Assembly: GCA_021292105.1 (NCBI GenBank)
Contig: CM037862.1
Location: 7,110,765 to 7,174,764 of the forward strand
Reading direction: 5' to 3'
DNA length: 64,000 bases
Source of the DNA: Anadara kagoshimensis
Taxonomy: Eukaryota > Mollusca > Bivalvia > Arcoida > Arcidae
Position numbers and translations under genes: made by a program. The notes beneath the pieces were generated by a model that saw only the letters and a program-made list of their open reading frames with translations, did not search any database and was not told the origin of the DNA. The first letter of the stretch is position 1. Each line of letters begins with the position of its first letter. Shown piece by piece: positions 6,289 through 53,461 of the stretch.

Positions 6289-6651
6289 GTACAAAAGGAG
6301 TTGAATAATGGTGTTTAACGTCCCAGTCAAGAATATTTCACTTATATTGAGACGTCGCCAGCTATAGGTGAAGGTGCAGAAATTTTGCCCATGCGTTGTG
6401 CTGATGGCATTATACAGCAGGGTTCTTTATCGTGCCAAGCCTACCAAGACACGGGACCTCGTTTATTTTAAGTTCCCATCCGAAAGAACTGTGACTTTCA
6501 TTTCGTAATGCCGAGTGCTTGGCGAAAGAACAGTCACTACCCACTTTTAAGTCTTGGGTCAGACCCGGCGGGGGTTCGAACCCACGACCTCCCACTTACG
6601 GAGCGAGCACTCTACCAACTGAGCTACCACAGTGGTTCGGGTACAAAAGGA
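6289..6651 (-). mobile_element. tRNA-derived SINE (full length, with target duplication)
   Basis: The minus strand reads a tRNA-like head (gtagctcagttggtagagtg, then an intact B box, ggttcgaacccc). A body follows and ends in cccagtcaagaat / gacgttaaacaccatt with a caactc tail. A 12-bp direct repeat, ggtacaaaagga, flanks it at 6289-6300 and 6640-6651, so this is a target-primed insertion. The head is part of a SINE, not a tRNA gene: the anticodon region is degenerate and ~260 bp of shared body follows. Confidence 0.9.
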
Positions 6652-13460: not shown

Positions 13461-14958
13461 CCAGGAATACACTATATATTATCGTCCCTCGACACGAGCT
13501 GTTTAAAGTGGTTTAAGTAATGGAGAGACACTGTTGTAATATCGTATGGTTTTCTCTAAATCTAAAATTAAAATTCACAAGAGGATTTAAAGTGTACTAT
13601 CGCCGTTAAAAGGTTTTTAATGGGTAAGAATTAGACTTTAATGATGAACAAGAAAAATCTCCACATGGAATTGCTACACCAGCAGTTTTCAAGCAATTCT
13701 TATTACAAGAGTCTTTATTTGGTCTTAAGGGTGTTATATGTTATGTAATAATGTAACCAGTTAAAGGTTCTTAAATTATAAAATGATTGTAAAGATATTG
13801 GCAGTTGATATAAATATGGAATATTGAAATCGCAAATTGTAATTGATGTTCTATTGAATTCCACCGCCGTTGCCAAGAGACGACCTTTTAACTTTCGCCG
13901 TTATAAGACCCTTGTGTCATTTGGAACTTTTAAATTGTAACCAAACAACAATATATACGTTTCGATGACAAATCGTACGACGCCAACTGAAAAAAAATAT
14001 TAAGCAAGTAATCTTTATTACCGTTCGTACATGGATTAATAACAACAATGAAGAGAAGAGATCTGAAAGGGGTTTTTAAAATGTTAAACTTATGAATTCG
14101 AAATTGTTTGAATTTTATTTCAATTTCAACGTTAATTATTTTGCAATAACATAAACAATTAAATAAAAAACGAAAACATTAGAACCAATACACCAATTAA
14201 TACATGATGCTGAGGTCAATGTTTTAAGAGGAAACCGGATATAACGCCAAAATTGCGGAAGCAGTCCGGTTGTACTAGAACTTGTGTGAACCAACTCGCA
14301 ATTTAATGCCAATGCAATGCTAAAAATATGAATGTTAATATAAATTAACGGACTAAATTCCTGTATATTTGTATAGAATTGCGGACTAGCTAGTAGCTTC
14401 ACTACGGTGCAAAGGCTATGTGTATTAAATGCAATGATCATCTAGTAAAGCAGCTGAACAGCGTGACTAAAAAAGCGGGAAATTGTTGTAAACAGCGTGG
14501 ATGCTAACTTAAGGAGTATCAATATTTCAAAGACAATTTTTTCAAATGTTTTGACAGAACAGTTTAGCGTTTTGGAATCCGAATCATATAAGTACGAGTG
14601 TCAAATTTAACCCAATGATTGGTGTGAAATAATGTTAAACGTTATGTAGTTTTAATTAGCAATGTTATCTCACTGGTGGTATTGATGTTCTTCTTATAGA
14701 TTGCTTAAATTGTAACAGACATTTTTGTCGATTGACCTAAATTATAGATGAGTTTTGTAGTTTTTTACAGGAAACGCACCAGTTTCATAGCCATTCCTTG
14801 ACTAAGATTTTCCAGACCGACTGACCAAAAAAGGACAGGTTTCTTTTCAAGGATCTAGAAATTTGATTGCCTCGTACTTTTGTTAAATCTGAATTACTAG
14901 AGCCAAAAATCTCAAAACAAACGAATCCCTGTCATCTGGGATTTAACTTGACTCGATT
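13461..14958. other. No recognisable gene
   Basis: AT-rich. The minus-strand frame at 14136-14441 has no recognisable domain or splice context. Nothing supported. Confidence 0.45.
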
Positions 14959-15046
14959 TGTCATATACCATTTTTTGAATGTATTTTATATATACTATTT
15001 TTTTTAATGTATTTTATGATTAAATTCAAAGAAATGGTATATGACA
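14959..15046. mobile_element. Palindromic element related to the 21417 double palindrome
   Basis: Begins tgtcataccattt-like (tgtcatataccattttttga) and ends aaatggtatatgaca, with inner block gtattttatgattaaattca. It differs from the 21417 copies by an inner duplication around tatatactattttttttaat. Confidence 0.75.
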
Positions 15047-16376: not shown

Positions 16377-16747
16377 ACCCATTTAATGAGTTGAGTTGAG
16401 TAATGGCTGTTTAACGTCCCAGTCAAGAATATTTCACTTATATCGAGACGTCGCCAGCTATAGGCGAAGGTGCAGAAATTTTGCTTGTATGTTGCGCTGA
16501 TGGCATTATACAGCAGGGTTCTTTTTTGTGCCAAGCCTACCAAGACATGGGACCTCGTTTATTTTAAGTTTCCATTCGAAAGAACCGTGACTTTCATTTC
16601 ACAATGCCGAGTGCTTGGCGAAAGAACAATCATTACCCACTTTCAAGTCTTGGGCCATACCCGGCCGGGGCTCGAACCCACGACCTCCCACTTACGGAGC
16701 GAGTACTCTACCAACTTAGTTACCGCAGTGGTCCACCCATTTAATGA
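16377..16747 (-). mobile_element. tRNA-derived SINE (full length, with target duplication)
   Basis: Same family and orientation as the copy at 6289. A 13-bp target duplication, acccatttaatga, flanks it at 16377-16389 and 16735-16747. The B box (ggttcgagccccgg on the minus strand) is present. The gttgag tail at the left is the expected simple 3' end of the SINE. Confidence 0.9.
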
Positions 16748-17145: not shown

Positions 17146-17246
17146 ATGCAAAGTATTTCCTTAGCTTAATTTGGTAAAATATATATTTGGTCCTTTGGAT
17201 AGCTTTTCAACATCTTTAAAATAATTTTGGTTTCATAACTTTGGTC

Positions 17247-17295
17247 CAAGCACTACTGATGAGGAATTGTATTCCGAAACGGCCGTCTAGTGTTG
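17247..17295 (+). ncRNA. Type I hammerhead ribozyme, unit 1
   Basis: Stem I is CAA-(G)-CACTA pairing with TAGTG-TTG. The core CTGATGA is at 17256-17262. Stem II GGAAT-TGT-ATTCC is a perfect 5-bp hairpin. GAAA is at 17276-17279. Stem III is the palindrome ACGGCCGT, counting the last A of GAAA. The cleavage triplet GTC ends at 17287. All invariant core positions are present, so it should be active in cis or as a dimer. Confidence 0.93.
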
Positions 17296-17586
17296 TAAAA
17301 TTCAAACTGGTATAATATGTAATTTAAACCCCTGAGCCGATATCTCTGCTGGTGGCTGGTGCCCCGAGGATATCACCAACTCAGTAGGCAATAATTTCGT
17401 ATTATTGTCAGAAATATACTATATTTGTCTAAATTTCCTGCAAGTTAAAATTTGAAATTTCTCAAAAACTAAGGTATATTCCCTCATGCAAAGTATTTCC
17501 TTAGCTTAATTTGGTAAAATATATATTTGGTCCTTTGGATAGCTTTTCAACATCTTTAAAATAATTTTGGTTTCATAACTTTGGTC

Positions 17587-17635
17587 CAAGCACTACTGAT
17601 GAGGAATTGTATTCCGAAACGGCCGTCTAGTGTTG
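17587..17635 (+). ncRNA. Type I hammerhead ribozyme, unit 2
   Basis: Identical to unit 1 in core, stems and cleavage site. It lies exactly 340 bp downstream, with predicted cleavage after 17627. Confidence 0.93.
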
Positions 17636-17926
17636 TAAAATTCAAACTGGTATAATATGTAATTTAAACCCCTGAGCCGATATCTCTGCTGGTGGCTGGT
17701 GCCCCGAGGATATCACCAACTCAGTAGGCAATAATTTCGTATTATTGTCAGAAATATACTATATTTGTCTAAATTTCCTGCAAGTTAAAATTTGAAATTT
17801 CTCAAAAACTAAGGTATATTCCCTCATGCAAAGTATTTCCTTAGCTTAATTTGGTAAAATATATATTTGGTCCTTTGGATAGCTTTTCAACATCTTTAAA
17901 ATAATTTTGGTTTCATAACTTTGGTC

Positions 17927-17975
17927 CAAGCACTACTGATGAGGAATTGTATTCCGAAACGGCCGTCTGGTGTTG
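17927..17975 (+). ncRNA. Type I hammerhead ribozyme, unit 3 (stem I wobble)
   Basis: The stem I 3' strand is TGGTG instead of TAGTG, which turns one U-A pair into a U-G wobble and keeps the helix. Core and GTC site are intact. Confidence 0.9.
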
Positions 17976-18266
17976 TAAAATTCAAACTGGTATAATATGT
18001 AATTTAAACCCCTGAGCCGATATCTCTGCTGGTGGCTGGTGCCCCGAGGATATCACCAACTCAGTAGGCAATAATTTCGTATTATTGTCAGAAATATACT
18101 ATATTTGTCTAAATTTCCTGCAAGTTAAAATTTGAAATTTCTCAAAAACTAAGGTATATTCCCTCATGCAAAGTATTTCCTTAGCTTAATTTGGTAAAAT
18201 ATATATTTGGTCCTTTGGATAGCTTTTCAACATCTTTAAAATAATTTTGGTTTCATAACTTTGGTC

Positions 18267-18315
18267 CAAGCACAACTGATGAGGAATTGTATTCCGAAAC
18301 GGCCGTCTAGTGTTG
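18267..18315 (+). ncRNA. Type I hammerhead ribozyme, unit 4 (stem I mismatch)
   Basis: The stem I 5' strand is CACAA instead of CACTA, giving one A-A mismatch next to the core-proximal pair. Core, stem II, stem III and GTC are intact. It is probably weakened rather than dead. Confidence 0.88.
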
Positions 18316-18606
18316 TAAAATTCAAACTGGTATAATATGTAATTTAAACCCCTGAGCCGATATCTCTGCTGGTGGCTGGTGCCCCGAGGATATCACCAAC
18401 TCAGTAGGCAATAATTTCGTATTATTGTCAGAAATATACTATATTTGTCTAAATTTCCTGCAAGTTAAAATTTGAAATTTCTCAAAAACTAAGGTATATT
18501 CCCTCATGCAAAGTATTTCCTTAGCTTAATTTGGTAAAATATATATTTGGTCCTTTGGATAGCTTTTCAACATCTTTAAAATAATTTTGGTTTCATAACT
18601 TTGGTC

Positions 18607-18655
18607 CAAGCACTACTGATGAGGAATTGTATTCCGAAACGGCCGTCTAGTGTTG
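18607..18655 (+). ncRNA. Type I hammerhead ribozyme, unit 5
   Basis: Identical to unit 1 throughout the motif. Predicted cleavage after 18647. Confidence 0.93.
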
Positions 18656-18946
18656 TAAAATTCAAACTGGTATAATATGTAATTTAAACCCCTGAGCCGA
18701 TATCTCTGCTGGTGGCTGGTGCCCCGAGGATATCACCAACTCAGTAGGCAATAATTTCGTATTATTGTCAGAAATATACTATATTTGTCTAAATTTCCTG
18801 CAAGTTAAAATTTGAAATTTCTCAAAAACTAAGGTATATTCCCTCATGCAAAGTATTTCCTTAGCTTAATTTGGTAAAATATATATTTGGTCCTTTGGAT
18901 AGCTTTTCAACATCTTTAAAATAATTTTGGTTTCATAACTTTGGTC

Positions 18947-18995
18947 CAAGCACTACTGATGAGGAATTGTATTCCGAAACGGCCGTCTAGTGTTG
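18947..18995 (+). ncRNA. Type I hammerhead ribozyme, unit 6
   Basis: Identical to unit 1 throughout the motif. Predicted cleavage after 18987. Confidence 0.93.
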
Positions 18996-19285
18996 TAAAA
19001 TTCAAACTGGTATAATATGTAATTTAAACCCCTGAGCCGATATCTCTGCTGGTGGCTGGTGCCCCGAGGATATCACCAACTCAGTAGGCAATAATTTCGT
19101 ATTATTGTCAGAAATATACTATATTTGTCTAAATTTCCTGCAAGTTAAAATTTGAAATTTCTCAAAAACTAAGGTATATTCCCTCATGCAAAGTATTTCC
19201 TTAGCTTAATTTGGTAAAATTATATTTGGTCCTTTGGATAGCTTTTCAACATCTTTAAAATAATTTTGGTTCCATAACTTTGGTC

Positions 19286-19334
19286 CAAGCACTACTGATG
19301 AGGAATTGTATTCCGAAACGGCCGTCTAGTGTTG
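19286..19334 (+). ncRNA. Type I hammerhead ribozyme, unit 7 (last, partial unit)
   Basis: Motif identical to unit 1 but 339 bp after unit 6, because of a small deletion in the preceding AT run. The array ends about 30 bp further on, so this ribozyme would define the 3' end of the last full monomer. Confidence 0.92.
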
Positions 19335-19366
19335 TAAAATTCAAACTGGTATAATATGTAATATAA

Positions 19367-21416
19367 AAACAAAATTAGAAAAAAATATTCATAGATTTAT
19401 TTTTGCGATTATTGTCACGATCTACATATTTGTGTTAACTATAAGTTATTGCAACAAAGGGACAAAAACGTCAACTTCGAAATAACCGAGTTTCGAAACC
19501 AGTTTCCTAAAAACATTTGCTACATATTCATCTGATTAATTACAGCCTTATCTCAATATTTTAGGTTATTAGCACACGCTAGCAGAAAAAAAAATGAAAA
19601 CACGCGCGTGACCACCTACACACAGTATTTGTAGTTTTAAAGTGGAAACTAAATATACAAACATCATAAAACAGTCCAAACCAACATCTAGTGTAGCGTT
19701 TGACTTTTGATTTCATTAAGGTTTCATGTTTTCTGGTAATCGTATTCTAATTTCGTGCTTAGCGCTAGAATACTTAAATGTTAGCCATGATGCCGATACA
19801 CATAGCTTCCGAGAAGTTGACAAGATTTTCTCATTAGCCCTCTTATGTGTAATTAACGAACATTTCCCGCCTTGTTTACCGTCCACTACTTCCGTAATTA
19901 TTCTCACGAAAGCTCGTTCGACCATACGGTTCTATTTTAAATATATTACCATGGAAACCAGAAAAATAAGGTGTTTTTATCTTTTGAAATTCTCCTTGTT
20001 CATTTTATGATGGTTAATTAATTTGTGTTGAAAGTACTTCTAGAGTGTTTAATAAACAACACACACAGTTGTTTTTTAAAGCAATTACCATGTGCTGTGT
20101 GTTAATTCGCCCGATTATTTTGATTAAACAAAAACATGATAAAGTATTTTGTGAAAATGCAGAGGAAACAGTCAATTGTCATACAAAATGTCAGAGTGAA
20201 ATGGTTTCTTGTGACAATGTCACATGCTGGTTTAGGAGCCTAATAAGCAATTTTAATTAAAACAGGACAAGAAAAAGACAACTTAATAGTATTGTCAAAC
20301 TGATGTCGTTTTACTTCACTTCATTGTGTTCTCGTAATGAAAATGGGGTCAATGTGTTCATGAAGTATGTATTTCAACATAACCTCGAATTTTATGGAAA
20401 TACTGCAATGATGACATTGCTTTTAAAAAGTTACAATGATGACGCAGAATGAAGGCCTATGCCAGACAATATTTCTTGCCGGGAGTTAAAAGCAAACATA
20501 CCAAACCGAACTAAACCCATTTGTTTAAAAATGTTATTATATAATTTAATCTATTTGTTACCAAAATCCGTCTATTTTAAAACACCTGTCCTTTAAAATT
20601 AAATCGTAAAAATCTCCAAAATTTAATTTATCATGTAAAAATCACGTTAAATTTATTCTCGAGTCGTAAATTTGATGTAAGTTACCATCTTAAATTCTAA
20701 TTTAAGATCCATCTACCAATAACTTGCCATGTTTTGATTTTAACATTGTTACACCACTTAAAATCAACAATGAATGTTCACAATGGGTCCTTGTCAAATT
20801 GAAATCATTTTAATTTGATCGAGTTTTCCATCACCATCTGAAGCCTTATTAAATGCACACGTGCTTCCCATTTTTATGTGAATATTCAATTTAGACATAA
20901 AGCATTAAACAATTGAATCGATCCATTGATACCTAATTGTCTTGAAACTTTACAGCAAGAAATCTTGGTCCAGTTTGTTTGGAACAATTTCTCAATGTCC
21001 TACTGTTGTGTCAACTGGAATAATCTGATTTAGTATATGGCAAAATTCTTTATGCATAGTGCGTGTTTTTTAAACCAAAGTATTACTTAAATTTTGCAAT
21101 ATGTAACATGGTTTTTATAGAAGCTGTAGGAGAAATATAGACAGAATCCATTGACATCGTCTGCTTTGTAGATATAATAGCTACTAAGACAAATGAACAT
21201 AGCGTGCTGTATTTGATTTTGGTTGCTTTTTGATCTTCGCGGTAAGGCTTTTTATGATAGACATCCCAATTCTTCATTGCACTTTTTTATGTATAAGGCA
21301 ATTTTGATTTACAACACGCAAATGTGAAAAGCTGCAAAAGGGGCCGTTTAGCTCCTAAAATAAATCACGATACGCTAACATTATTCTCTGATGTCTAAAC
21401 GGCTCATTAATGGTGG
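19367..21416. other. No recognisable gene
   Basis: AT-rich, with a slightly GC-richer island at 19700-19930. The overlapping plus and minus frames there (19726-20010, 19716-19925) have no domain. No repeat shared with other parts of the window was found. Confidence 0.45.
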
Positions 21417-21540
21417 TGTCATATACCATTTTTTGAATTTAATCATAAAATACATTCAAAAAATGGTATATGACAATATATTGTCATATACCATTTTTTG
21501 AATGTATTTTATGATTAAATTCAAAAAATGGTATATGACA
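21417..21540. mobile_element. Perfect ~124-bp palindrome made of two inverted palindromic units
   Basis: Unit 1 (21417-21475) and unit 2 (21482-21540) both begin tgtcatataccatttttt and end aaaaaatggtatatgaca. Unit 2 is the exact reverse complement of unit 1, joined by atatat. Each unit is also nearly self-complementary. A related single unit lies at 14959-15046. Confidence 0.85.
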
Positions 21541-22656: not shown

Positions 22657-23020
22657 TAAAGGCAAACCTGCGGTAGCTCAGTTGGTAGAGTGCTCGCTCC
22701 GTAGGTGGGAGGTCGTGGGTTCGAACCCCGGCCGCGTCTGACCCAAGACTTAAAAGTGGGTAGTGACTGTTCTTTCGCCAAGCACTCGGCATTACGAAAT
22801 GAAAGTCACGGTTCTTTCGGATGGGAACTTAAAATAACCGAGGTCTCGTGTCTTGGTAGGCTTGGCACGATAAAGAACCCTGTTGTATAATGCCATCAGC
22901 GCAATGCACAGGCAAAATTTCTGCACATTTGCCTATAGCTGGCGACGTCTCGATATAAGTGAAATATTCTTGACTGGGACGTTAAACCCCATTACTCACT
23001 CACTCACTCTTAAGGCAAAC
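22657..23020 (+). mobile_element. tRNA-derived SINE (full length, plus strand)
   Basis: The head at 22670-22735 has an A-box-like tagctcagttggtagagtg and a B-box ggttcgaacccc. A body of about 250 bp follows, ending gactgggacgttaaacccc and a cactcactcact tail. The target duplication is ctaaaggcaaac / cttaaggcaaac (22656-22667, 23009-23020). It is the best reference copy for the family in this window. Confidence 0.92.
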
Positions 23021-26890: not shown

Positions 26891-27754
26891 AAATGGGAAG
26901 GAAAGGAACATGGAGCTATAGGATGTCAATTATATCTAGGATAATTTTTATACTCAAGTTATACTTTTTTCGTATTTATAAATAATATCGTGATTACGAC
27001 CATAAGTCTTTTCCAGGGTCTCGATAAGCCTGGGCTTGCAATATACCAGCGTCAACAAAAAGAATGGAATAAAGCACGTGCGTATTAACAAATTGCATTC
27101 CATTACGTCTGTTTACACGATATACAGACAGTGAAAGAGAGTTCAATCAGATACCGTGATGTGTATCTCTCACCAGGCCCGTCAGTTGATATCAAAGACA
27201 CGACAGATATAGACTGTTTGTATACTTCCATTGTGAAGCAAGAAAGTCGAGATTTCTATATAATTAGCAGAACAAACCGTTTGTTTTAGTCAGAGAACAG
27301 AAAGCTTTCTATGTCAAGTACACAAGATATGTGTGTTCTGTCGGCTTATTACGAGTAATACGAATTATTTTGAGGTGTATTTACACGTTTCTATTATTTA
27401 TCTGTAAGGCAATCAGTGGGACTGGCTAGTCTCAAAAATGGACAGAAAATATAGAAATTATTTTCAATAGTTCATTCTATATATCTGAAAAATATATAAG
27501 CATAAGTGTTTAATTTTTTAGAAAAAAAGAAGAAATTTATTACTCTTATTTGAGTTTATGATAGTATAATTGACGTCATTTATATAAAAATAAAACAAGT
27601 GTTAAAAGAGAATCATTATCATAAATCGGTGCTTATTACTTAGTATTAGGTTGACCTCGCCCTTAATGTTACACCGCGAAGATTAGAAGATATGGCTAAC
27701 AACAACTGAATCATTAAAGTTTTATATGTTATGTTACACGTGTTGTAACTACAT
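26891..27754. other. No recognisable gene
   Basis: AT-rich. Nothing supported. Confidence 0.5.
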
Positions 27755-27975
27755 ATTATACCAGCTTTAATTTCACAGCACTAGACGGCCGTTTCGGTAT
27801 ACAATTCCTCATCATTAGTGCTTGAAAAACAATTGTGAAGCTAAATGTTTAAGGTGTTGAAAAAATATCCAAAGTACAAATAGAACATAAGTATTTTATA
27901 TGTATACATTTTTGATGTATTGATGACGTGACATTTATCTAAGGAAATACTTTGCATGAGGGAGTATATCTTATA
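27755..27975 (-). repeat. Solitary decayed copy of the hammerhead repeat unit
   Basis: The reverse complement of 27755-27975 follows the 340-bp unit from ccctcatgcaaagtatttcc through the hammerhead to actggtataat, but with much divergence between. It is a single copy with no neighbouring units. Confidence 0.75.
27776..27824 (-). ncRNA. Decayed hammerhead motif
   Basis: On the minus strand the core reads ATGATGA where CTGATGA is needed. Stem II reads GGAAT-TGT-ATACC, with one mismatch. GAAAC, GGCCGTC and stem I remain. Loss of the core C should abolish cleavage. Confidence 0.8.
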
Positions 27976-29194
27976 TTTTGAAAACAACACAAACCATTCG
28001 TAAACGTATTTTAGTTTTAGCAATCTACCGACAACTACAACATGTTAAAACATCCTATACTACCTATAATTTTATGTGCAGTTGTAGCATGTTGTTGACC
28101 GTTTCCATCTTAAATTTCTGTCGAGTTTAGTCAACATTAAAACAAATCCCTTTACTTATAACAATTGCATACCATTGGAAAAAGATAAAGATAATATGTT
28201 CAATGGCATTAAAAGGATGTCCATATTTTTGCTAACATACGTCCATGTGCGTCTTTTCTAACGAAGATGCATTTATTACTAAACCTGTTTCAAATCCACG
28301 ACACCAAACGACTGCCACGGAACATAATTCCCACCAGCAGTACCCGGACCAAAACTGCGAAAATCCAAATATCTCACGATGTTAAAATGAGAAAGCAGAA
28401 GAGCCAAAGTGTATTTGCCACGCCCAAGGCGATACGTAAAACGTATTCGTTTTTGAGGAATTTTAAAATTTAAGAAACAATTAATTTTGATAAACAATGT
28501 TTATATGACAATAAAACAATAATTCCTAGGTTCATGATATCCTCGGGTATGTTTAGTTCACCAGCAAAGATACCATTCCAGTAGTTGCTATTATTATTAA
28601 ACTTGATTCAACTTCACAACACCTTAATTATGTGCAACACTCTCTTCACCAATGTTATACGTTTACACAGGCTTTTGTAACAAAAAAAATCTGAGATGGA
28701 ATGTTTGAACCTCACCATGGACACAATATTCATTATGAATCATTCATGAATTTTATCATTGTCGTGTAATCTGTATTTTGTGTTTTTCTTAATTTCTTTT
28801 ATTCTATTCTGCTGTCAGTCTTATTTTATATTATATTTTTATATTTTTGTACACAATTTCGCAACTATTGCAATAATTAACTTTTTAAGGCATCTTCAAT
28901 ATTAAACCTGGCAAACAAGACCACAGTGTTGTCTTATTGTAAGGGAATTAACTCTAAATGGAAACATAATGGAATAACTCTACATTGTTTATCTCTCTTT
29001 ATTGGCAGTAGATGAAATGGGCAATTGCAATAAAGAACGCGATAAAAAAAAGAAAAGAAGAAACAAAACAAACAATACATTTTATACAAGACTTGGACTC
29101 AACGGACATTTGACAAAGAAGTCAGTCGAATGCTGTTCAGTACTCCTTTCATTTACAATAAATGAAGATGATGTACGAAAATTGTAAAATAAAA
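27976..29194. other. No recognisable gene
   Basis: A GC-richer patch at 28290-28445 has frames on both strands (28267-28473 plus, 28279-28497 minus) but no domain or clear splice sites. The remainder is AT-rich. Confidence 0.4.
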
Positions 29195-29632
29195 AAACTA
29201 CATTTGAAGCTATAGGGCAAACGTGATAACTTCAATATTTCTATTGTCAATTTTTATTGTTTTTGCAGCAATATATCCGATTCTCTTGCTTGTGGTTATT
29301 TGTTTGATAGTAAATACGATGATAGAGCTTGTTCCCATTGCAGGAACTTTATACAGCGAGGCTAACATCTTTCAAATAAATGTTGATTCTGGGATATTGT
29401 AAGCTTAGGCTTATTTAAGCTCATAAATACTATGGCCGTCAGCACAATTATATTGATAAGTATAATGCTCTATATCCGAAATTATCCTGGGCATATTAGT
29501 CATTCCGTAGTTTCATGTTCTTTTTATTCTCAATTTGGATTTTACACATGACGGATCGAGCTACCTAGACCGGAAATGATTAATCTTTCCGGGGCACCCG
29601 TCATCATTTTACTACTGCAAAATCACGTGTTT
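29195..29632 (+). mobile_element. Decayed RT-element fragment and first part of its tail
   Basis: Blocks aaacgtgataacttcaatat, cttgttcccattgcaggaac, taagcttaggcttatttaag and cccgtcatcattttactact line up with the element at 37690-38450. The tail stops at cacgtgttt (about 29632), where the hammerhead repeat begins. It resumes at 30380. Confidence 0.7.
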
Positions 29633-29673
29633 GATGATGAGGAATTGTATTCCGAAACGGCCGTCTAGTGCTG
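29633..29673 (+). ncRNA. Hammerhead motif with its 5' stem I strand replaced
   Basis: The left junction cuts the motif. TGATGA, stem II, GAAA, stem III and GTC are present, but the base before TGATGA is A and the stem I 5' strand is lost to tail sequence. It is expected to be inactive. Confidence 0.8.
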
Positions 29674-29961
29674 TAAAATTAAAACTGGTATAATATGTAA
29701 TTTAAACCCCTGAGCCGATATCTCTGCTGGTGGCTGGTGCCCCGAGGATATCACCAACTCAGTAGGCAATAATTTCGTATTATTGTCAGAAATGTACTAT
29801 AATTGTCTAAATTTCCTGCGAGTTAAAATTTGAAATTTCTCAAAAACTAAGATATACTACCTCATGCAAAGTATTTCCTTAGCTTAATTTGGTAAAATAT
29901 TTTGGTCCTTTGGGTAGCTTTTCAACATCTTCAAAATAATTTTGGTTTCATAATTTTGGTC

Positions 29962-30010
29962 CAAGCACTACTGATGAGGAATTGTATTCCGAAACGGCCG
30001 TTTAGTGCTG
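29962..30010 (+). ncRNA. Type I hammerhead ribozyme with a GUU cleavage triplet
   Basis: Core CTGATGA (29971-29977), perfect stem II and GAAA are present. The triplet is GTT rather than GTC. Stem I pairs CA(A)G-CACTA with TAGTG-CTG. GUU is permitted in the NUH rule but is slower. Confidence 0.85.
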
Positions 30011-30300
30011 TAAAATTAAAACTGGTATAATATGTAATTTAAACCCCTGAGCCGATATCTCTGTTGGTGGCTGGTGCCCCGAGGATATCACCAACTCAGT
30101 AGGCAATAATTTCGTATTATTGTCAGAAATGTACTATAATTGTCTAAATTTCCTGCAAGTTATAATTTGAAATTTCTCAAAAACTAAGATATACTCCCTC
30201 ATGCAAAGTATTTCCTTAGCTTAATTTGGTAAAATATATTTTGGTCCTTTGGGTAGCTTTTAAACATCTTCAAAATAATTTTGGTGTCATGATTTTGGTC

Positions 30301-30349
30301 CAAGCACTACTGATGAGGAATTGTATTCCGAAACGGCCGTCTAGTGCTG
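30301..30349 (+). ncRNA. Type I hammerhead ribozyme, intact
   Basis: CTGATGA at 30310-30316, GGAAT-TGT-ATTCC, GAAA, CGGCC and GTC, with cleavage predicted after 30341. Stem I has the CACTA / TAGTG pairing plus CAAG / CTG. Confidence 0.92.
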
Positions 30350-30379
30350 TAAAATTAAAACTGGTATAATATGTAATTT

Positions 30380-30455
30380 AACGATTTCAAAGTTTTTATT
30401 TTTATTTTAGGATTGTGATTTCGACATAGACTGATATTTTTGTTTTTAGTATATT
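30380..30455 (+). mobile_element. Resumed terminal part of the interrupted RT-element tail
   Basis: Begins aacgatttcaaagtttttat and continues through aggattgtgatttcgacata and a gttttta end. This is the piece that follows cacgtgttt in uninterrupted copies. Confidence 0.75.
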
Positions 30456-33368: not shown

Positions 33369-33454
33369 TGTTCAACCAATATCAACAATGCTAATAAAAA
33401 ATAAACACACTTATTTGCATTTATAGTGACTGGTATAGACGCTATGTGTGCAGA

Positions 33455-33760
33455 ATGGCAAGTGGATGCGATTACCTGTTGGTAGCGGCAATTGATATCG
33501 GAACCACCTTCTCCGGTTATGCGTTTTCCTTCCGTTACGAATACGAAAGTGACCCAACACATGTCTGTACCAACAGTTGGATGGCTGGAACGCTTATTTC
33601 ACATAAAACGTCAACCTGTGCCTTATTTAAGCCGGACGGGACATTCCATTCTTTTGGGTATGAAGCTGAAGACACCTATTCCAACTTAGTTTTAGATGAT
33701 GATGATTATAAGGATTGGTACTACTTTAGAAGGTTTAAAATGAAGTTGTACGAGGAACAA
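33455..33760 (+). CDS. HSPA12-like exon 1
   Basis: Codes 102 residues, from MASGCDYLL to KLYEEQ. It contains the N-terminal ATP phosphate-binding loop and the WYYFRRFKMKLY block typical of the family. It ends on a codon boundary at donor gtatgt. Confidence 0.88.
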
Positions 33761-36700
33761 GTATGTATTATTGTTATATGTTCAAATGTTAGATCAGTAG
33801 TCAAGTCCATCAAAGATGAGAAGAAACGCATATTTTTATGTTTTCTGTTTTATTGACTATATAGTACAAAGATAATGATGTAACATGTTTTAGTGTTTAG
33901 AATCTTAGTTGATAAATATGATGTTTCTGTATCCGAAATTATTCGGGACCTATTTGATATCCCATAGTTCCATGTTCCTTTTTACTCGATTTTTCATGTT
34001 ACTGGTGTAACTTTTTGATCAGGAAGAACATGTTTTAATTGTGGAAGTACGCAATTTAAGCTTACTTTAACTTTTTACTTTAAAGTTTATAACTTGACTT
34101 AGGAAGTAGACATGCTTTTTTTAGTTTTGTTACGATTATTCATATATTGGACTTTTAAATTGAGAATCGGACTGGTCGAATGTTAACATGTTACATAAAC
34201 TTTTATATTTCAGCATCTAAAGCGAGGATTAGTCCTAGAGGAAGACAATGGTAAAACAAAACGGCAATAGATGTTATCTCAAATTCAATTTGCTATTTAA
34301 AAGATCACTTGATGGAAACTTGTAGAAAGCAGCAAACTGATTTAAGTGACTCTGATGTTCTTTGGGTATTGACAGTTCCTGCTATCTGGAGTGACCCGGC
34401 CAAACAGTTTATGAGAGAGGCAGCAGAAAAGGTTTTTTTCTTTTTTGTTTTCAATTTCATTTTTCCATTTTGTCTTTATTCTATTTTGAAGATACAACCC
34501 GTATCACGGGCTATATACATTTCGGAAATATTTTCTTGTAAATTGATTATATTTTTTTGTATTTTAGGAACCGATGTACACAGCCAATTTTTGTTCACAT
34601 GAAATTAACGTGAATTTCACATGAAAAATTTCACGTGAAATTAACGTTAATCGAGCTTATACGTTAAACTCACGTGAATGTCGCGTGAAATTCACGTGAT
34701 TCACGTTAATTTTTTCACGTGAATTTAACGTATAAGCTCGATTAACGTTAATTTCACACGAAATGAGCTATCATATCAAACTTTAATTGATAGGAATTCC
34801 AAGTTTATATTACTTTAGATTGCTCACTAGTACACTTGTTAAAGACTTCTTGCTACATTCTCCATTAACCCTGGCCCTAGTTTCACAATTGTTCCTTAGC
34901 TAAGATTTACCTTAAAGCTATTTTAATGTGAAAATGTCTTAAACATGATACCTTAAATTCCTGAATATCTTAAAACGTAACAAAATTATAAAGATTTAAA
35001 ATTTTGAAAGATTTAAGTTAAAGACAATCCTGACAAAGGAATGATTGTGAAACCGGGGCTTGTACATGATGATAGAACCAGTTCATTTAAATGCAGTGCA
35101 TTTTAAGTACTTCTTTCAATTCAGATTACATTGTAATCTGAAAATAGAGTAAATGATGTCTCAATATCAAACAAAGACAACTGTAATTTTCAAATGTTTT
35201 ATATATAAATAATACACTTCATAAAAAAATCATAAAATTCATTTTACTACATTCTTGTGAGTGCCTGTGGGACCCCTATATGAAGTAACTACCACAAATG
35301 TAGTAACGGTCACAAATGTAATAAAATTGTGTCACATATGTAGTAACGAACCACAAATGTAGTAAGGTTTGTCACAAATGTAGTAAATGTGGTCACAAAT
35401 GTAGCAACAAAATTTTACCACAAATGTAACAACTTAATTTTACTACAAACGTAATAAAAATTAAAAAATGATAAAATAGTTATATATATTTTTTTAATAT
35501 GGGTAATATATTGGCTAGTGTTATTTAATGACAAGCACTTTTAAGATTCTTCAGTTCTAAGCTACTCATAACGATGTGAAATGTCACGGTTCATGTGAAC
35601 AGTCATTTTCAGCTCTGACAAGGCTACTACAAGAAAGTCCCGAGATGAATTTCACGTCCCCAGGACATTTATTGGTCGCTGATTTATTTAGAGTTGAGTA
35701 ATGGTGTTTAACGTCCCAGTCAAGAATATTTCACTTACATCGAGACGTCGCCAGCTGTAGGCGAATGTGCAGAAATTTTGCCTGTGCGTTGCGTTGATGG
35801 CATTATACAGCAGGGTTCTTTAGCGTGCCAAGCCCACCGTGACACGTGACCTCGTTTTTTGAGTTCCCATCCAAAGGAACGGGACTTTCATTTCGTAATG
35901 CCGAGTGCTTGGCGAAAGAACAAGATACACCATACACGATTACAGACGTTCTATTTTACAGACCAACACATCTTATAAAATGCAGTTCATATACTTCAAT
36001 AACGATATTTACGAAGTATTGTAAATGCAACAGAGAGAGAAAGAGAGAGAGAGAGAGAATAAAAAGCAGCAAATATTACAAAAACTTTTGTGAGATTGCT
36101 CCCACATACTGGTCCAAATCAAGTGTTGTCATCGTAAAAACGTAAATTCAGCGGCGAAGCAAAATGAAACGCGAACTTGATCTGTAACAAATTGTTGTAG
36201 ACCTACATGCCAAATCAGTTCAATATGTGCAAGCTATTACGAAAAAAACCTGCAGAAGAAAACTCTTATTTCAATATTATCAAAGACAATTGCAAAGGAT
36301 CGGATTCAAAGCAAAACAAACGTTAACTTGATTTGCAACTCATTGTTGTTGATTCGCATTCAAAAACTCAGCCTAGTATCTGAAAGTGTTTAGGAAACAA
36401 TGCGGAAAACTTAAAATTGACTGATGGACGGACGGACGACCAACAGCATTATACTTCCTACATCTTAAGTTTCGTGGAGTATAATTTAATTTAATTTAAT
36501 TTAATTTAATTTAATTTAATTTAAAAAAATTTTATTCAAAATATAGTAGTATATAATAAATACATGTACCTTACTAAAATCTGCCAAAATACAGAAAACC
36601 CAGAAACTTCTAGTAAATTTAAAAACTGAACTTAACATGTAATTCACAAACCGAAATATAATAAAAATAAGAGGCCAATTGGCATTATCGCTCATTGTAT

Positions 36701-39700
36701 AATGCATAACATACGTACAGGGGTAACACCCTTACAAGGATTATCAGATACAAGTAGTTATTTATTACATTTATATCTGAATTACTACTATTAGATGTTA
36801 TGTTAATCATTTTGTAATGTGCCGATTTATGTGACACTAATAGTTTTCAAGTAAATAGAAAAAAACCAGTAAAATTAACAATTTATATTTTCTTTGGTAT
36901 TTTAGTATTTAATAAAGTCACTTATATTAGAATCATAACCACTTCTATCGGGATAGAATTTCCTTCTATCGTGTTAAAAGTCACTTCTAACGCGTTTTAA
37001 AGTCACTTCTTTTCGGAACAACAGTCGCTTCTATCGGGTTAGAACGTACCTTGAATGTTGGTTTCTAACGTTCAGATTTCAATATTTTCGTTACTACATA
37101 TAGCGTTTTCATTTACTACATTTGCGGTAACAAAAATTGTTACTACATTTCTGGTAACGGTCGTTCCTACATTTGTGGTTCGTTACTACATATGTGAGAC
37201 AATTTTATTACATTTGTGACTGTTACTACATCGGTGGTAGTTACTACATATAGGTATATAACTTATTGTTTTGAGATAAACTACTAAAACAACATTCACT
37301 AGCCCTGACCAATTTTCACTAGCCTAAGGCTAGCAGGCTAGTATAAGTGTCCACCCCTGCCTGTGTCACAATTGGCATGACCCTGCAGTATAATGCTATA
37401 ACTGGCAATAGCGCAACACACAGGCAAAATTTCTACATCTTTGCCTATAGCTGGTGATGTCTCCATATAAGTGAAATGTTCTTGACTGGGACGTTAAACA
37501 CCATTACTCAACTCAACTCCTTGCTCCTAAAATGTACTGATATACATGTATTTGCATATTTATGAGAGACATTGTTGAGGACCGCAAATAGTTCTATTTC
37601 AACACCTCAAGGCATTATTTTGTAAATAAATCTAGTGTTCTACTGTTCAATGCACGTTCAAAATCGGTAGTTTTATAATCAGTAGTCTAAATATGTGTTT
37701 GTCTTATATTGTTTTTTTATCATATACTTCATATACAGAGAAGACTGTCGCCAAATCGTTCAACTCAACTTACAGATATATAGATGACGTTCTGTCTCTT
37801 GACAATCCTAAATTTGGAGACTATGTAAATGTCATCTATCCTAGTGAGCTTGAAATAAAAAACACGACTGATTCCTCAAGTTTTGCTTCATATTTAGACT
37901 TATACCTGAATTATGACGCACACAAAAGGCTACATATGAAACTTTATGACAAACGTGATGATTTAAATTTTTTTATTGTCAACTTTCCGTTTTTATGCAG
38001 CAATATACCTGCTTCTCCTGCTTATGGTGTATTTGTTTCCCAATTAATACACTATGGTAAAGCTTGTTCCCACTACGGGGACATTGTACAACGAAGTAGG
38101 CTGCTTGCAAATAAATTGTTGACTCAGGGATATTGCAAGCCTAGGCTTATCAAGGCCCTCAAAAATTTTATGGGCCGTCATCACACTATTGTTGATAAGT
38201 TTGATGTTTCTGTGTCCAGGATTGCCTGGATATATTTGACGTCTCATAGTTCCATGTTCCTTTCACACAATTTTGATTTAACACGTGGCGGGTGAAGCTA
38301 GCTAAACAGGAGGTGCTTACCCTTTCGGAGCACCCGGCCTCACTTCCCTGGTGGAAGTTTACGTGTCTAACCAAACTTGTCAGTTCCAAAGTTTACTTTG
38401 CTTCTGGATTGTGATTCGGACATGGATTAGAGTTTGTTTTTTGATTGTATTAACGTAGTTTCTGCATACTTTGATACGGCTAAAATCATGTCATCCATAT
38501 CACCGACCGCACGTGCCTGATCGGAAAATCTGTTTCACGGTCTGATATCAGACCGGTTTCTTGGAACAGATAGATTTAACCACCTTATCATTTGAGAAAT
38601 TTTGACGGCATCAAGGCCTTACAAATGTTCGTACTGATCAGAAATATGTGATGTCGGGATTGAAGTACCGGTATTTGGAGTAATGTGTTTTTTGTCTAAT
38701 TGCGTAGGGTTACTTTTTTGTCATATTTAAGGCAAATGTCTGTATAAATTATTATTCTACAATTATGGTGAAATTTTAGTATATGATAAACAAAATAAAA
38801 CATGGTGAAATCCATAGCATATGCCATACTTTACCTCGACCGATAGCAGAAGCCCGAGGTCTGATATAGGTAGTCTCCGTAAGATATGACGTATGATATG
38901 GATTCCATCATGTATTATTCTATATATAATTATTTGCTGTTTCTGTTAAAAAATTCATCCAATTCTAGATTTGAACTTTGTTTTTGTTATTTGCTTTTTA
39001 TTTTAACCTACAGTAAAAATTGCTACGACCTATGAAGATATATTATGCACAAAACTTGTTTAACTCTCGATTATTCTGTATTCACAGAAAAGATTATGCT
39101 TGGCTAAGGTCAGTTATATCTTTGGACACTCCAGTTTCCTCCAACATCCATGAATTGACCATTGCAATATAAGTAGAAGAGTCTTCACTGGAATGTAAAA
39201 CTTACTCCACTCCAAACAAATGAAGATATATATGGTTAAGGGACAGGAAGGGATCTTAAAAGTTTTAAAGTTACATTTTAAATAGAGTGTAGTCACTAGT
39301 CAGTAATAATAATAATAAATTAAATAAAACTTTATTTAAAACAAAATTTTAAAACTTACAACATAAGCTTTTAGAGAGTTTTTGATTGGTACCATAGCAT
39401 ATGGTCCTCACATTGGGAGAGACCAAAAAGCATATTGTCTGATTGCATTCTATCGTATAAAATGAATAGATCTTCATATTGTGAACACATGTACGATTCC
39501 AAGTTTACAGCTTTACTTGCTGTATAGCAGTTGAACTGTTCACTAAAATGACCCAGCATACCGGTCCATGGTGCAATAAATTTTAGAAAAAAATTGTACC
39601 TTCTTTGCATATCCTGCCAAGTGTTATGAAGATCATGCAATCAAGTTGTCTTCGAGAAGAACTCTGCTAATAGATATTAGAACCAGTGAAAATAAAAAAC

Positions 39701-44900: not shown

Positions 44901-47153
44901 GAAATTCCATATTGACACTGAAGTTTGTTCAGATTAAAAATTGAAAACGCGCATTGGACGGAGCATATGTATAACTTCAGAGTTGCAACAAATGAATTGA
45001 TATACCATGTGGTCATATCTTTATGATTTTAATTTAAACCATATTGCTGGATGCACCATACAACCAAAATATAGGCAAACGACCCTGTGAGTGACTTAAG
45101 ACGTTTATTTATTAAATTTAAAGAACATAACCCAAATTCATTTATGCCAGCTTTGTAAAGTTATAATATTGCATCTTATTCAACTGCAACTGATTTCCAT
45201 TTGTCAAAAATCTGCATTATGCAACGAACGGAAAGGATTTCACTATTCCACAAAATTATTCAGGCAGGAATCAAAAGCAACAGACTGATACTAGCTCTGG
45301 AACCAGAAGCAGCATCCTTGTTTTGTATGAGACTTCCTCTAGAAAAAATTAGTGGTGGGATGCAAAAAGGATTATCAGCCTTTCAGCCAGGATCAAAATA
45401 TATTGTATTAGATGCAGGAGGTCTGTTATATTTTTATTCTAAAAATTATATTATTCTTTATATTTCTTGTACTGTTACTAAATATGAACTTTATAAAAAT
45501 ATGTAGCTGCGATGATAATTTAGCATTTCACGGCGAAATCTACAATTTATGCACATTTTGTTTTGTAACTTCGTTAAACTAGATTGAAATATCGTGAATT
45601 TTATTTCATTATTTCACACGTAACTACTACACCGGAGCTGCTTACTCTTATGAAGAACCGACATCTCTTTCTTGGTGGACATTCTCGTATTTTATTTCAT
45701 TTAAGTTTCAAAATTATGTTTTCATTTTGTATTGTGGTTTAGATAAGGGTTGCTATGTTTATTTTTTATTATGCTCCAAACAGAAGGACCAGAAGATTTC
45801 TTATAAAGGTTATAAATGTTCGCTTCTTCTATACTAACTGCCTTCCCCATCTTGTTGGTTGCGATATAGTCATTTTCCTCGATACAAGTTGTTACAGATA
45901 CTGTAATACTACACTAGGACAATGTAATTTTTCATACAATCTAAAATGTTATCTCAATAAAACTTTTCATGAATATAATCATTAGTGGATGTCATACAAA
46001 ACATCCAGTTAACTATTTCAAAGTGGACTTATAATCTAAGTACACCGAGTCTTCAAAACTGCAAACCTAACATATCAGATTCATTTCATTTTCAGGAGGT
46101 ACTATTGATATAACAGTACATGAAGTACAACCTGGCAATAGCCTGAAAGAATTACACAAAGCAAATGGAGGTGACTGGGGTGGCACGAAGGTCGATGAGG
46201 CATTCCGAGTGCTTCTTGCGGAAATAGTTGGCAATGACGTCATGGATGTTTTTTGTAAAGATCACACATCTGATATGCTGGATTTGTACAGAGAGTTTGA
46301 AGTTAAAAAGAGAACAATTACTCCAAAATTAGATGCCAAGATAACATTCAAAGTACCTATCTCTTTGAACGAAACACACAAAGGTCTGAATTCAGGTAAG
46401 GAAATAAAGGATTCCCTGGCTTCTAAACAAAAATACAGTAAAAAAGTATCATGGGTTAGCGACAAGTTACGAATAGACGCAGATATTGCCAAAGGACTAT
46501 ATGATTTTTCGATAAAGGAAATAGTTTCTCACCTGAGAGAGTTGCTGACACATGTTTCCGTTCAAGGCTGCAGTGCTATTCTAATGGTTGGTGGATTTTC
46601 TGAGTCACCGATGCTGCAGGAAGCGATAAAGTCAAATTTCAAACATTTACGCGTCATTGTTCCAAGTGAGACAGGGTTATCAGTGCTAAAAGGAGCAGTA
46701 GTGTATGGTCACGATCCATCTACAATCAAATACAGAGTCTGTAAATACACATATGGAGTGAACACCAGTGTCAAATTTGATCCGTCCATTCATGACCAAG
46801 CAAAAAAAGATTCAGACGAAACAGGTGCTCTGTATTGCAACGATATTTTCAGTAAGCATGTAACAATTGGCCAGACAGTTGTCGTCGGAGAACCACAAGT
46901 AGAAAAACCATACTTTGTTTTTAAAGCAAATCAGTCATTCCTTAGATTCAAAATTTATATATCAACGGAACCAGACCCAAAGTACATCACCGATCCGTCT
47001 TGCAAGTTACTCGGAACAATGCGTGTTGAAATGCCTGATGTTCATTTAGGATTACAGAAGTGTATCGTGTCTTTACATTTAGCGGCGGAATTGCAGGTCA
47101 AAGCTACAAATGAACAAGATGGAAATCAACCATGGCAACGTTTGACTTGTTAG
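33455..47153 (+). CDS. HSPA12-like HSP70 family protein, four coding exons, one frame break
   Basis: Exons 33455-33760, 34215-34431, 45264-45420 and 46096-47153 join with GT-AG introns in phases 0, 0 and 1. The length is 578 codons if one extra base in exon 2 is discounted. The phosphate-1 motif AAIDIGTTFSGYAFS lies near residues 11-25. VLTVPAIWSDPAKQFMREAA is in exon 2, ALEPEAASLFC and the phosphate-2 motif VLDAGGGTIDITVHEV (222-237) span exons 3-4, WGGTKVDEAF is early in exon 4, and the adenosine motif ILMVGGFSESP is near 388. As in HSPA12, there is no classical substrate-binding domain or EEVD tail. The expected role is a cytosolic ATP-binding chaperone-like protein; in bivalves the clade is expanded and linked to stress and immunity. 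The break between about 34251 and 34263 could be a sequence error or a young pseudogene. The upstream GTG at 33446 is not used; ATG at 33455 is the natural start. Confidence 0.88.
33895..34110 (+). mobile_element. RT-element end and tail, diverged, in HSPA12 intron 1
   Basis: Reads gataaatatgatgtttctgt, then tatttgatatcccatagttc, catgttcctttttactcg and the tactttaaagtttataact region. This is the order of the element end at 38200-38400, at low identity. Confidence 0.6.
34215..34431 (+). CDS. HSPA12-like exon 2 (contains the frame break)
   Basis: The acceptor is tttatatttcag. The first part reads HLKRGLVLEEDNGK. From about 34264 the family sequence AIDVISNSICYLKDHLMETC ... MREAAEK is in another frame. 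The two are reconciled by one surplus A in the run aaaacaaac. Read straight through, the frame meets TAG at 34323. A 25-nt intron cannot explain this. The donor follows AAG at 34432. Confidence 0.85.
34593..34765. repeat. CACGTG-rich large hairpin
   Basis: The left arm gtgaaattaacgttaatcga, gcttatacgttaaa and cacgtgaa is mirrored by ttcacgtgaatttaacgtat, aagctcgattaacgttaatt and cac. It is packed with the palindromes TTCACGTGAA and AACGTT. Confidence 0.8.
35694..35922 (-). mobile_element. tRNA-SINE, head missing
   Basis: The body and gttgag tail match the copy at 6289 closely. It stops at ccgagtgcttggcgaaagaa, so the tRNA-like head is absent (5' truncation). Confidence 0.85.
36032..36059. 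repeat. (GA)n microsatellite
   Basis: An imperfect GA run inside the foldback element. Confidence 0.85.
36481..36526. repeat. (TTTAA)n microsatellite
   Basis: About nine pentamer units. Confidence 0.9.
36938..37060. repeat. ~27-bp repeat, cttctatcggg type
   Basis: Four to five imperfect units with agtcacttctatcgggttag-like sequence, next to the right arm of the foldback element. Confidence 0.65.
37360..37519 (+). mobile_element. tRNA-SINE, 3' part only
   Basis: Contains acacacaggcaaaatttcta, ttgcctatagctggtgatgt and cttgactgggacgttaaaca with a caactcaactc tail. It is a plus-strand 5'-truncated copy. Confidence 0.85.
37690..38450 (+). mobile_element. Reverse-transcriptase element, C-terminal coding part plus 3' tail
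   Basis: An open frame (37693-38295) contains STYRYIDDVLSLDNPKFGDYV with the YIDD catalytic box near residue 29. It then reads ELEIKNTTDSSSFASYLDLY, KLYDKRDDLNFFIVNFPFLC and FMGRHHTIVDKFDVSVSRI. This resembles a widespread invertebrate non-LTR or Penelope-like reverse transcriptase; the family name is uncertain and no endonuclease is present. The tail follows: cacgtggcgggtgaagctag, gagcacccggcctcacttcc, ggaagtttacgtgtctaacc, gattgtgattcggacatgga. The copy is 5'-truncated, is the best preserved in the window, and lies in HSPA12 intron 2. Confidence 0.85.
38452..38930. mobile_element. tcagaccga-type hairpin element, second copy
   Basis: Holds the reverse complement of the 26560-26700 end (acgtagtttctgcatacttt, atcaccgaccgcacgtgcct) and, 300 bp on, the hairpin end tgaaatccatagcatatgcc ... 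tgatatggattccatcatgt. It abuts the RT-element tail directly. Confidence 0.65.
39685..39850 (-). mobile_element. RT-element tail copy
   Basis: Contains acatactaatacttgtccga, atcacaatccagaagcattt, tcaattagggaagtgaagct and tctgtttagctagctacac. It has the reverse orientation. Confidence 0.75.
39860..41865. other. No recognisable gene
   Basis: Intronic. It includes a (TTA)n/(AAT)n mirror at 40469-40515 and an unusually CpG-rich patch at 41170-41300 (gcgatttttctggcc, ggcgacaaaaaacggcgc). No frame with a recognisable domain was seen. Confidence 0.45.
41866..41912. repeat. (TA)n microsatellite
   Basis: About 23 TA units. Confidence 0.95.
42690..42960. repeat. Dispersed repeat with duplicated A-rich segment
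   Basis: Starts ggtaccaaatttcatctaaa with cgttcccgagatatg. It is followed by two copies of a (aat)n / agaagaaacagaa / aaacaatatgatt / ccaccttc(a/g)gtggtg block about 85 bp apart. Each ends in a small hairpin. The minus-strand frame through it is a repeat artefact. Confidence 0.7.
43440..43769. repeat. CACGTGAA-rich segment at right end of the candidate 9.2-kb structure
   Basis: Repeated gaacgtgaaat, ttcacgtgaa and ttcatgtgaa motifs lead to the terminal repeat agcaaaatttggctgtg. It mirrors the content of 34593-34765. Confidence 0.75.
43852..44838 (+). repeat. ~1-kb dispersed repeat with internal ~120-bp subrepeats and AGGTCA motifs
   Basis: Opens agctcacctgaccgcaggtc and atgtgagcttatgg, and closes ggtgggcgtatcaggcccaa and tggcctcttgttc. 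Inside are a gtgcgtgc run and several diverged copies of a block (aactataaactttttgtata ... aacgatcattttgat ... aaggtcatg). It resembles a repeat common in bivalve genomes. There is no coding capacity. Confidence 0.65.
44034..44047. promoter_or_regulatory. RFX X-box palindrome
   Basis: GTTGCCATGGCAAC is a perfect 14-bp palindrome matching the RFX-factor X-box consensus. It lies inside the dispersed repeat at 43852. Whether it is bound is unknown. Confidence 0.5.
45264..45420 (+). CDS. HSPA12-like exon 3
   Basis: The acceptor is aaaattattcag. It codes AGIKSNRLILALEPEAASLFC through SKYIVLDAG, plus one base. It is phase 1 at its 3' end, which completes the DAGGGT motif with exon 4. Donor gtctgt. 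Confidence 0.9.
45595..45765 (+). mobile_element. RT-element tail, diverged, in HSPA12 intron 3
   Basis: Contains gagctgcttactcttatgaa, ctctttcttggtggacattc and attgtggtttagataagggt with gctatgttta. The order matches the tail. Confidence 0.55.
46096..47153 (+). CDS. HSPA12-like exon 4 (terminal)
   Basis: The acceptor is tttcattttcag. It codes GGTIDITVHEV, the WGGTKVDEAF segment, the REFEVKKR block, the adenosine motif ILMVGGFSESP, VPSETGLSVLKGAVVYGHDP and a C-terminal lobe ending RLTC. It has one uninterrupted frame of 351 codons and then TAG. Confidence 0.93.
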
Positions 47154-53101: not shown

Positions 53102-53461
53102 TTTTCAGACTAACGAGTTGAGTTGAGTAATGGTGTTTAACGTCCCAGTCAAGAATATTTCATTTATATCGACACCTCGCCAGCTATAGACGAAGATGCA
53201 GAAATTTTGCCTGTACGTTGCGCTGAAGGCATTGTATAGCGGGGTTCTTTAGCGTGCCAAGCCCACCGTGACACGGGACCTCGTTTATTTTAAGTTCCAA
53301 TCCAAAAGAACCGTGACTTTCGTTTTGTAATGGCTAGTGCTTGGCCAAAAAACAGTCTCTACCTTTGGTCAGACCCGTCCGGGGATCAAACTCACGACCT
53401 CCCACTTACGGAGCAAGTACTCTACCAACTGAGCTACCGCAGTGGTTAAATTTTTAGACTA
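53102..53461 (-). mobile_element. tRNA-derived SINE (full length)
   Basis: Body and head match the 6289 copy. The target duplication is ttttcagacta / tttttagacta (53102-53112, 53451-53461). The gttgagttgag tail is on the left. Confidence 0.88.

Follow-up and report, generated by a model that had tools for sequence, protein, structure and literature searches.

Tandem repeats of animals that carry a type I hammerhead ribozyme (HHR) have been described as non-autonomous, non-LTR retrozymes, and in the passages of Cervera & de la Pena 2020 (PMC7229834) cited here, metazoan retrozymes have units of 150-450 bp with a GC content below 50%. Circular RNA of such repeats has been demonstrated in a coral, the mussel Mytilus galloprovincialis and the axolotl, and the circles are abundant in the animals tested; enzymes of LINE or Penelope-like elements, making tandem cDNA from the circles, have been suggested (PMC7229834). 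The mussel repeats, about 350-390 bp long, make circular RNAs, the mussel retrozyme RNA being mostly circular, and the mussel HHRs lack most of the conserved nucleotides of the loop 1-loop 2 contact (PMC7229834). The circles of animal retrozymes mostly leave the ribozyme free, some mussel circles excepted, and target-site duplications, when present, are longer than 4 bp (PMC7229834). According to the part of a 2020 review cited here, animal repeats show no conserved motif revealing the mobilising retrotransposon (PMC7761336).

A further system of relevance is PAc, the Penelope-like protein of an anole, which starts reverse transcription internally, downstream of the HHR, and the genomic ends lie at those sites (PMC11167929). 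HHR cleavage is not needed in vitro, as HHR mutants left PAc insertion unaffected, and the PAc mRNA is described as multimeric (PMC11167929).

The window, i.e. the whole 64-kb stretch of DNA analysed here, contains four dispersed insertions of one HHR-bearing repeat, distributed over both strands; three of these (B, C and D) are additional to the array (A) reported in the sequence-only reading of this DNA. Taken as a whole, the arrays are very probably insertions of a metazoan non-LTR retrozyme. Good support for placing them among the animal type I HHR retrozymes comes from the unit size (tandem units of 337-340 bp), the GC content of below 50%, the presence of a type I HHR in each repeat, the tandem form and the dispersed copies, and the repeats are non-coding.

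Array A (17146..19367, forward strand) consists of 6.5 tandem 340-bp units with seven HHR motifs and ends at unit position 183. Tandem Repeats Finder reports a period of 340, 6.5 copies and 99% matches, and the GC content of the unit is 33.8%. The seven HHR cores, CTGATGAGGAAT, lie at 17256, 17596, 17936, 18276, 18616, 18956 and 19295. The 340-bp array with seven HHR motifs described earlier is confirmed by Tandem Repeats Finder and by these core positions, while the exact 340-bp step claimed for it applies to five of the six steps, the last being 339 bp. Stop-to-stop frames of at least 90 aa are absent from the interior of arrays A and B, and one minus-strand frame overlaps the edge of array A by 61 bp. 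The word ATGCAAAG, present at 17146-17153 and at every unit start, resembles the octamer promoter word; newt satellite 2 is said to use a snRNA-type promoter.

In array A, no differences separate units 1, 2, 5 and 6, whereas a single substitution distinguishes each of units 3 and 4; the partial unit 7 shows two substitutions, of which one is at the array edge, together with a 1-bp deletion. Four substitution sites vary within the array, including the one at the edge. The near-identity of the units, as asserted by the sequence-only reading, is borne out by these counts, whereas its ascription to retro-copying is one option among others. Two of the four non-edge changes fall in the 3'-most unit, which makes up 180 of 2220 bp (8%; P = 0.035, with n = 4 changes), a pattern that weakly favours homogenisation at a later stage. 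An origin as a retrozyme, followed by unequal crossing-over or gene conversion that gave array A its near-identity and its length after a shorter insertion, is an account to which we attach almost even credence. It agrees with the internal units being identical or one change apart and with the concentration of changes in the terminal partial unit, and coral arrays of up to 62-mers have been reported (PMC7229834). Against it, the test depends on the four changes mentioned, and direct insertion would yield short products such as B, with its 2.2 units, and D, with about one.

Array B (29634..30381, forward strand) comprises approximately 2.2 units of 337-339 bp, ends at unit position 182, and is 95.6-96.5% identical to array A. 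It contains two full HHRs (cores at 29971 and 30310) and one without its 5' side, and eight substitution sites vary within it. At nine sites, each covered by 2-3 B units, a substitution sets every covered unit of A apart from every covered unit of B, which is the pattern to be expected had each array derived from one template unit. Copy C (27739..27984, reverse strand) is a decayed partial unit, 82-83% identical, with a fuzzy 3' end and an altered first base of the HHR core. Copy D (28275..28622, reverse strand) amounts to about one unit and is strongly decayed, with an identity of 67-72% depending on the alignment and a broken HHR core; it begins at unit position 145, adjoining the HHR cut, and its 3' end lies at 174 or a few nucleotides later. 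Within arrays A and B, the full motifs preserve the HHR core.

The positions of the insertion ends, mapped with unphased single-sequence queries in two different phases, point to the manner in which these copies may have been made. The 3' ends are at unit positions 183 (A), 182 (B), 187-189 (C) and 174 (D), a 15-nt spread over n = 4 loci in which the ends of C and D are fuzzy; the 5' ends are at 340/1 (A), 111 (B), 314-316 (C) and 145 (D). For uniform ends, the probability of three further loci lying within 15 nt of the first is P = 7.6e-4, a value calculated once the data had been seen. In unit coordinates the HHR cut lies at 142/143, and the insertion 3' ends are about 30-45 nt beyond it. 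A near-common 3' end combined with differing 5' ends speaks for reverse transcription that began at a specific site. Had the 3' end of a cleaved linear monomer served as the priming site, the insertions would end at 142, as seen in none of the four loci, which argues against such priming. The start of copy D (28622) lies 2-3 nt from the HHR cut and, at this one locus, could represent a reverse transcription stop at a cleaved RNA end. At the four loci no convincing target-site duplication was found, the longest shared words being 6-7 nt at unmatched offsets. The AT content of the 100 nt 3' of the four insertions ranges from 0.66 to 0.82, as compared to 0.67 for the window, and two of the four stand out.

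These ends also bear on the nature of the template. That the template was a linear multimeric RNA, copied from an internal or 3' site close to unit position 182 and with HHR cleavage incidental, is unlikely. Such a template would account for a near-common 3' end lying past an uncut HHR in all four loci, and for the start of D at unit position 145 near the cut, which fits a cleaved 5' end; the multimeric mRNA of PAc and the lack of effect of HHR mutants on its insertion (PMC11167929) point in the same direction. On the other hand, the nine fixed A/B differences fit a single-unit template, even if homogenisation would look alike, and the predominance of circles in mussel retrozyme RNA (PMC7229834) favours a circular template.

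The HHR of unit 1 extends over 17249..17294 (forward strand), with a predicted cut at 17287/17288, after GTC. Its equivalents on the same strand in array A are at 17589-17634, 17929-17974, 18269-18314 (with a stem I mismatch), 18609-18654, 18949-18994 and 19288-19333, the stem I ends of these intervals being obtained by arithmetic from the cores. The motif is of type I, open at stem I, which has 7 bp including one G.U pair; the HHR of unit 3 has a second G.U in this stem, and that of unit 4 (18274) has a mismatch and fails the strict descriptor. The strict descriptor is passed by six of the seven motifs of array A and by both full motifs of array B. A paired stem I, claimed for every motif, is free of mismatches in six of seven. 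Of the complete hammerhead claimed for each unit, CTGATGA, the stem II GGAAT-TGT-ATTCC, GAAA and GTC are all present, but stem III has just 2 bp (A-U and C-G), closed by a GGCC tetraloop, and the monomeric fold is predicted to be disfavoured. The GAAACGGCCGTC stretch (17276..17287, forward strand) holds the 2-bp stem III and the GGCC tetraloop within a perfect palindrome, ACGGCCGT.

Structure prediction with ViennaRNA gives the monomeric HHR fold -6.5 kcal/mol as against -11.0 for the local minimum. When two motifs are folded together, the predicted minimum is a dimeric type I HHR (-31.9 kcal/mol) with an 8-bp stem III built from the palindrome. The HHR probably works as a dimer, because its stem III is of 2 bp and lies inside a palindrome. 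In the predicted circle of unit A, every HHR pair has a probability of at most 2.1e-4 and forcing the HHR fold costs 10.8 kcal/mol above the minimum, while the pairs of the minimum fold average a probability of 0.83. By these predictions, the HHR is a disfavoured fold both in the monomer and in the circle, where the ribozyme is hidden. The stability of the whole unit is ordinary (z -0.98, 19 of 100 shuffles), as is that of the HHR region (z -1.26, with 26 of 200 shuffles as stable). Two predicted stem-loops (17326..17412, forward strand) are located at and just 3' of the common insertion end and are repeated in each full unit. This 87-nt block is moderately stable (z -2.27, with 4 of 200 shuffles as stable), and a 64-nt part of it is of ordinary stability (z -0.81, 34 of 200 shuffles).

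A descriptor demanding at least 14 pairs gave eight matches on the forward strand of the 64-kb window (six in A and two in B) and none on the reverse strand, as compared to five matches in total, on both strands, in 300 first-order-Markov random windows; the eight are copies of one motif and are non-independent. The HHR anatomy is above chance. A relaxed scan of the whole window for minimal HHRs found nothing beyond the known eight of A and B. The Rfam hammerhead models, to which the sequence-only reading had looked for support, gave no match at the gathering score nor even at E<=10, in a search run without a positive control; this null result is read as reflecting the poor fit of the models to a 2-bp stem III. 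Viral contigs contained no match to an exact 30-mer or to near-exact HHR patterns, and contigs of prokaryote genomes contained none to the exact 30-mer. One viral contig shares an 18-mer with the stem-loop block; this was taken as chance, because the alignment covers those 18 bases alone. That the repeats are an ordinary satellite, and the hammerhead-like motif a functionless relic, is very improbable: the Rfam result, the weak monomeric stem III and the competing folds would suit it, but not the excess of descriptor matches over random windows, the dispersed insertions with a near-common 3' end and the intact core of the full A and B motifs.

The 5' flank of array B (29192..29630, forward strand) is a 439-bp decayed copy of the 3' region of a reverse transcriptase (RT) element, 73% identical to 37924-38366, a segment covering the end of an RT ORF fragment and its 3' region. 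The RT-element 3' region resumes 3' of array B at about 30382, and the flanks of B match an uninterrupted related site. Array B is, on this alignment, a nested insertion interrupting an RT-element copy, rather than a pseudo-LTR, because the RT-element sequence continues past it. An explanation of the arrays as pseudo-LTRs belonging to an autonomous Penelope-like element is very improbable: the position of B in an RT-element copy would suit it, but it is largely contradicted by the resumption of that copy beyond B, by the lack of frames of at least 90 aa in the arrays and by the relaxed descriptor, which finds HHRs in A and B only. The related idea that B is joined to the 3' end of the RT element, in the manner of a pseudo-LTR, was dropped on account of this resumption.

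Two related sites (about 38366 and 24431) retain 13 bp that are absent at the B junction, and a small target deletion at B first looked likely. A third related site (about 30507), which holds no retrozyme, is equally without the 13 bp, so that the gap at B may be older than the insertion.

The RT ORF fragment itself (37636..38295, forward strand) shows a YIDDV motif by eye. Its best match is at 85%, and its best named relative is a protein of the blood clam Tegillarca granosa (75% identity, 74% query coverage), and its matches include a Patella protein as well. These relatives suggest a bivalve, possibly an ark clam, as the source of the window. Against Pfam the fragment gave no match, and among its relatives P0001 matches RVT_1 below the curated cut-off and P0048 does not match RVT_1; P0001 has no relative in the PDB. 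There are 12 other matches to 37636-38500 within the window. Six of the seven inspected ends of RT-element fragments are near a T-rich, (T)TTGTTTTT-like stretch, and this family, too, may have a common 3' end.

Other repeats and genes were also recorded in the window. A 392-bp tandem array (58938-60114; three copies, 86% matches) was considered as a second retrozyme and rejected, as it gave no HHR descriptor match. Four related stretches (6550-6636, 16646-16732, 22668-22750 and 53363-53446; 88-91% identical to the second) look like a tRNA-derived SINE family, because three of the four overlap tRNA-model matches. Exon-like frames at 33398-34602 and 45159-47153 look like an Hsp70-family gene, presumably of HSPA12 type, with a sub-threshold Pfam HSP70 match at 46071-47150 only. 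MITE-like repeats composed of TGTCATATACCATTTTTTGAATGT and of the reverse complement of this word are present at 21417-21540 and 14956-15017, of which the former scores as MIR2593 below the family cut-off.

Returning to the retrozyme reading, we infer self-cleavage, circularisation and retro-copying of the units from their sequence. Multimeric transcripts would self-cleave, probably as dimeric HHRs, and the monomers would be ligated into circles. The target-primed reverse transcriptase of a Penelope-like or LINE element would then begin synthesis at a fixed internal position, some 40 nt downstream of the HHR junction, and would run one or more turns round the circle to give tandem copies truncated at the 5' end; later unequal exchange possibly homogenised or expanded array A. 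As a tentative generalisation, which we hold to be possible rather than probable, reverse transcription of animal retrozymes may begin at a fixed internal point that lies about 40 nt beyond the HHR junction, at the foot of the predicted stem-loop block, and these elements may be inserted by Penelope-type internal initiation on circular RNA copied for more than one turn. If this is true, insertion ends would identify the partner machinery. Insertions with a near-common 3' end, differing 5' ends and an identifiable uninterrupted site make the question of the partner accessible to a simple count across the genome and to biochemical testing. The one new element here is the common 3' end, seen at four loci. 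The passages of PMC7229834, PMC7761336 and PMC11167929 cited here make no mention of such an end in animal retrozymes, nor do the titles or opening lines of the abstracts among the matches listed. For bivalve, ark-clam and target-primed retrozyme literature, nothing closer than PMC7229834 was found among the matches listed, which is weak evidence of absence.

As compared to the known systems, the arrays share with plant LTR retrozymes the character of HHR-bearing, non-autonomous retroelements with circular RNA (the circles being a proposal here), but the plant elements are larger and have a type III HHR, LTRs and 4-bp duplications (PMC7229834, PMC7761336), whereas the HHR of the present arrays is of type I. 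The satellite-like W elements of schistosomes, likened here by description, are hammerhead repeats with functional HHRs and evidence of mobility (PMC8490949), for which the word retrozyme is not used in the passages of that source cited here. Newt satellite 2 and the axolotl retrozymes, again likened by description, have repeats of about 330-350 bp with a type I HHR that is best as a dimer, and one axolotl family has a palindromic stem III loop, as found here (PMC7229834); they belong to a phylum different from that of the window if the latter is molluscan, and stem III here has two pairs.

The insertions of the Penelope-like PAc resemble those described here in having an internal end downstream of the HHR cut. 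The cut and the insertion end are about 30-45 nt apart in the present arrays as compared to 85-92 nt for PAc (by arithmetic from the figures in PMC11167929), and the targets of PAc are AT-rich (PMC11167929), while here two of the four 3' flanks stand out in AT. PAc-type HHRs are minimal; the arrays have a short stem III and no ORF, and the RT and GIY-YIG endonuclease ORF of Penelope-like elements is absent from them, as evident from the lack of any frame of at least 90 aa.

The 2-bp stem III with its tetraloop is of a form called similar to invertebrate HHRs (PMC7229834). The retrozymes of Mytilus galloprovincialis, to which the arrays are likened by description, have longer units (about 350-390 bp, PMC7229834) than the 337-340 bp found here, and they share with the arrays a tandem arrangement of units that measure a few hundred base pairs, each bearing a type I HHR, are low in GC and are free of coding frames.
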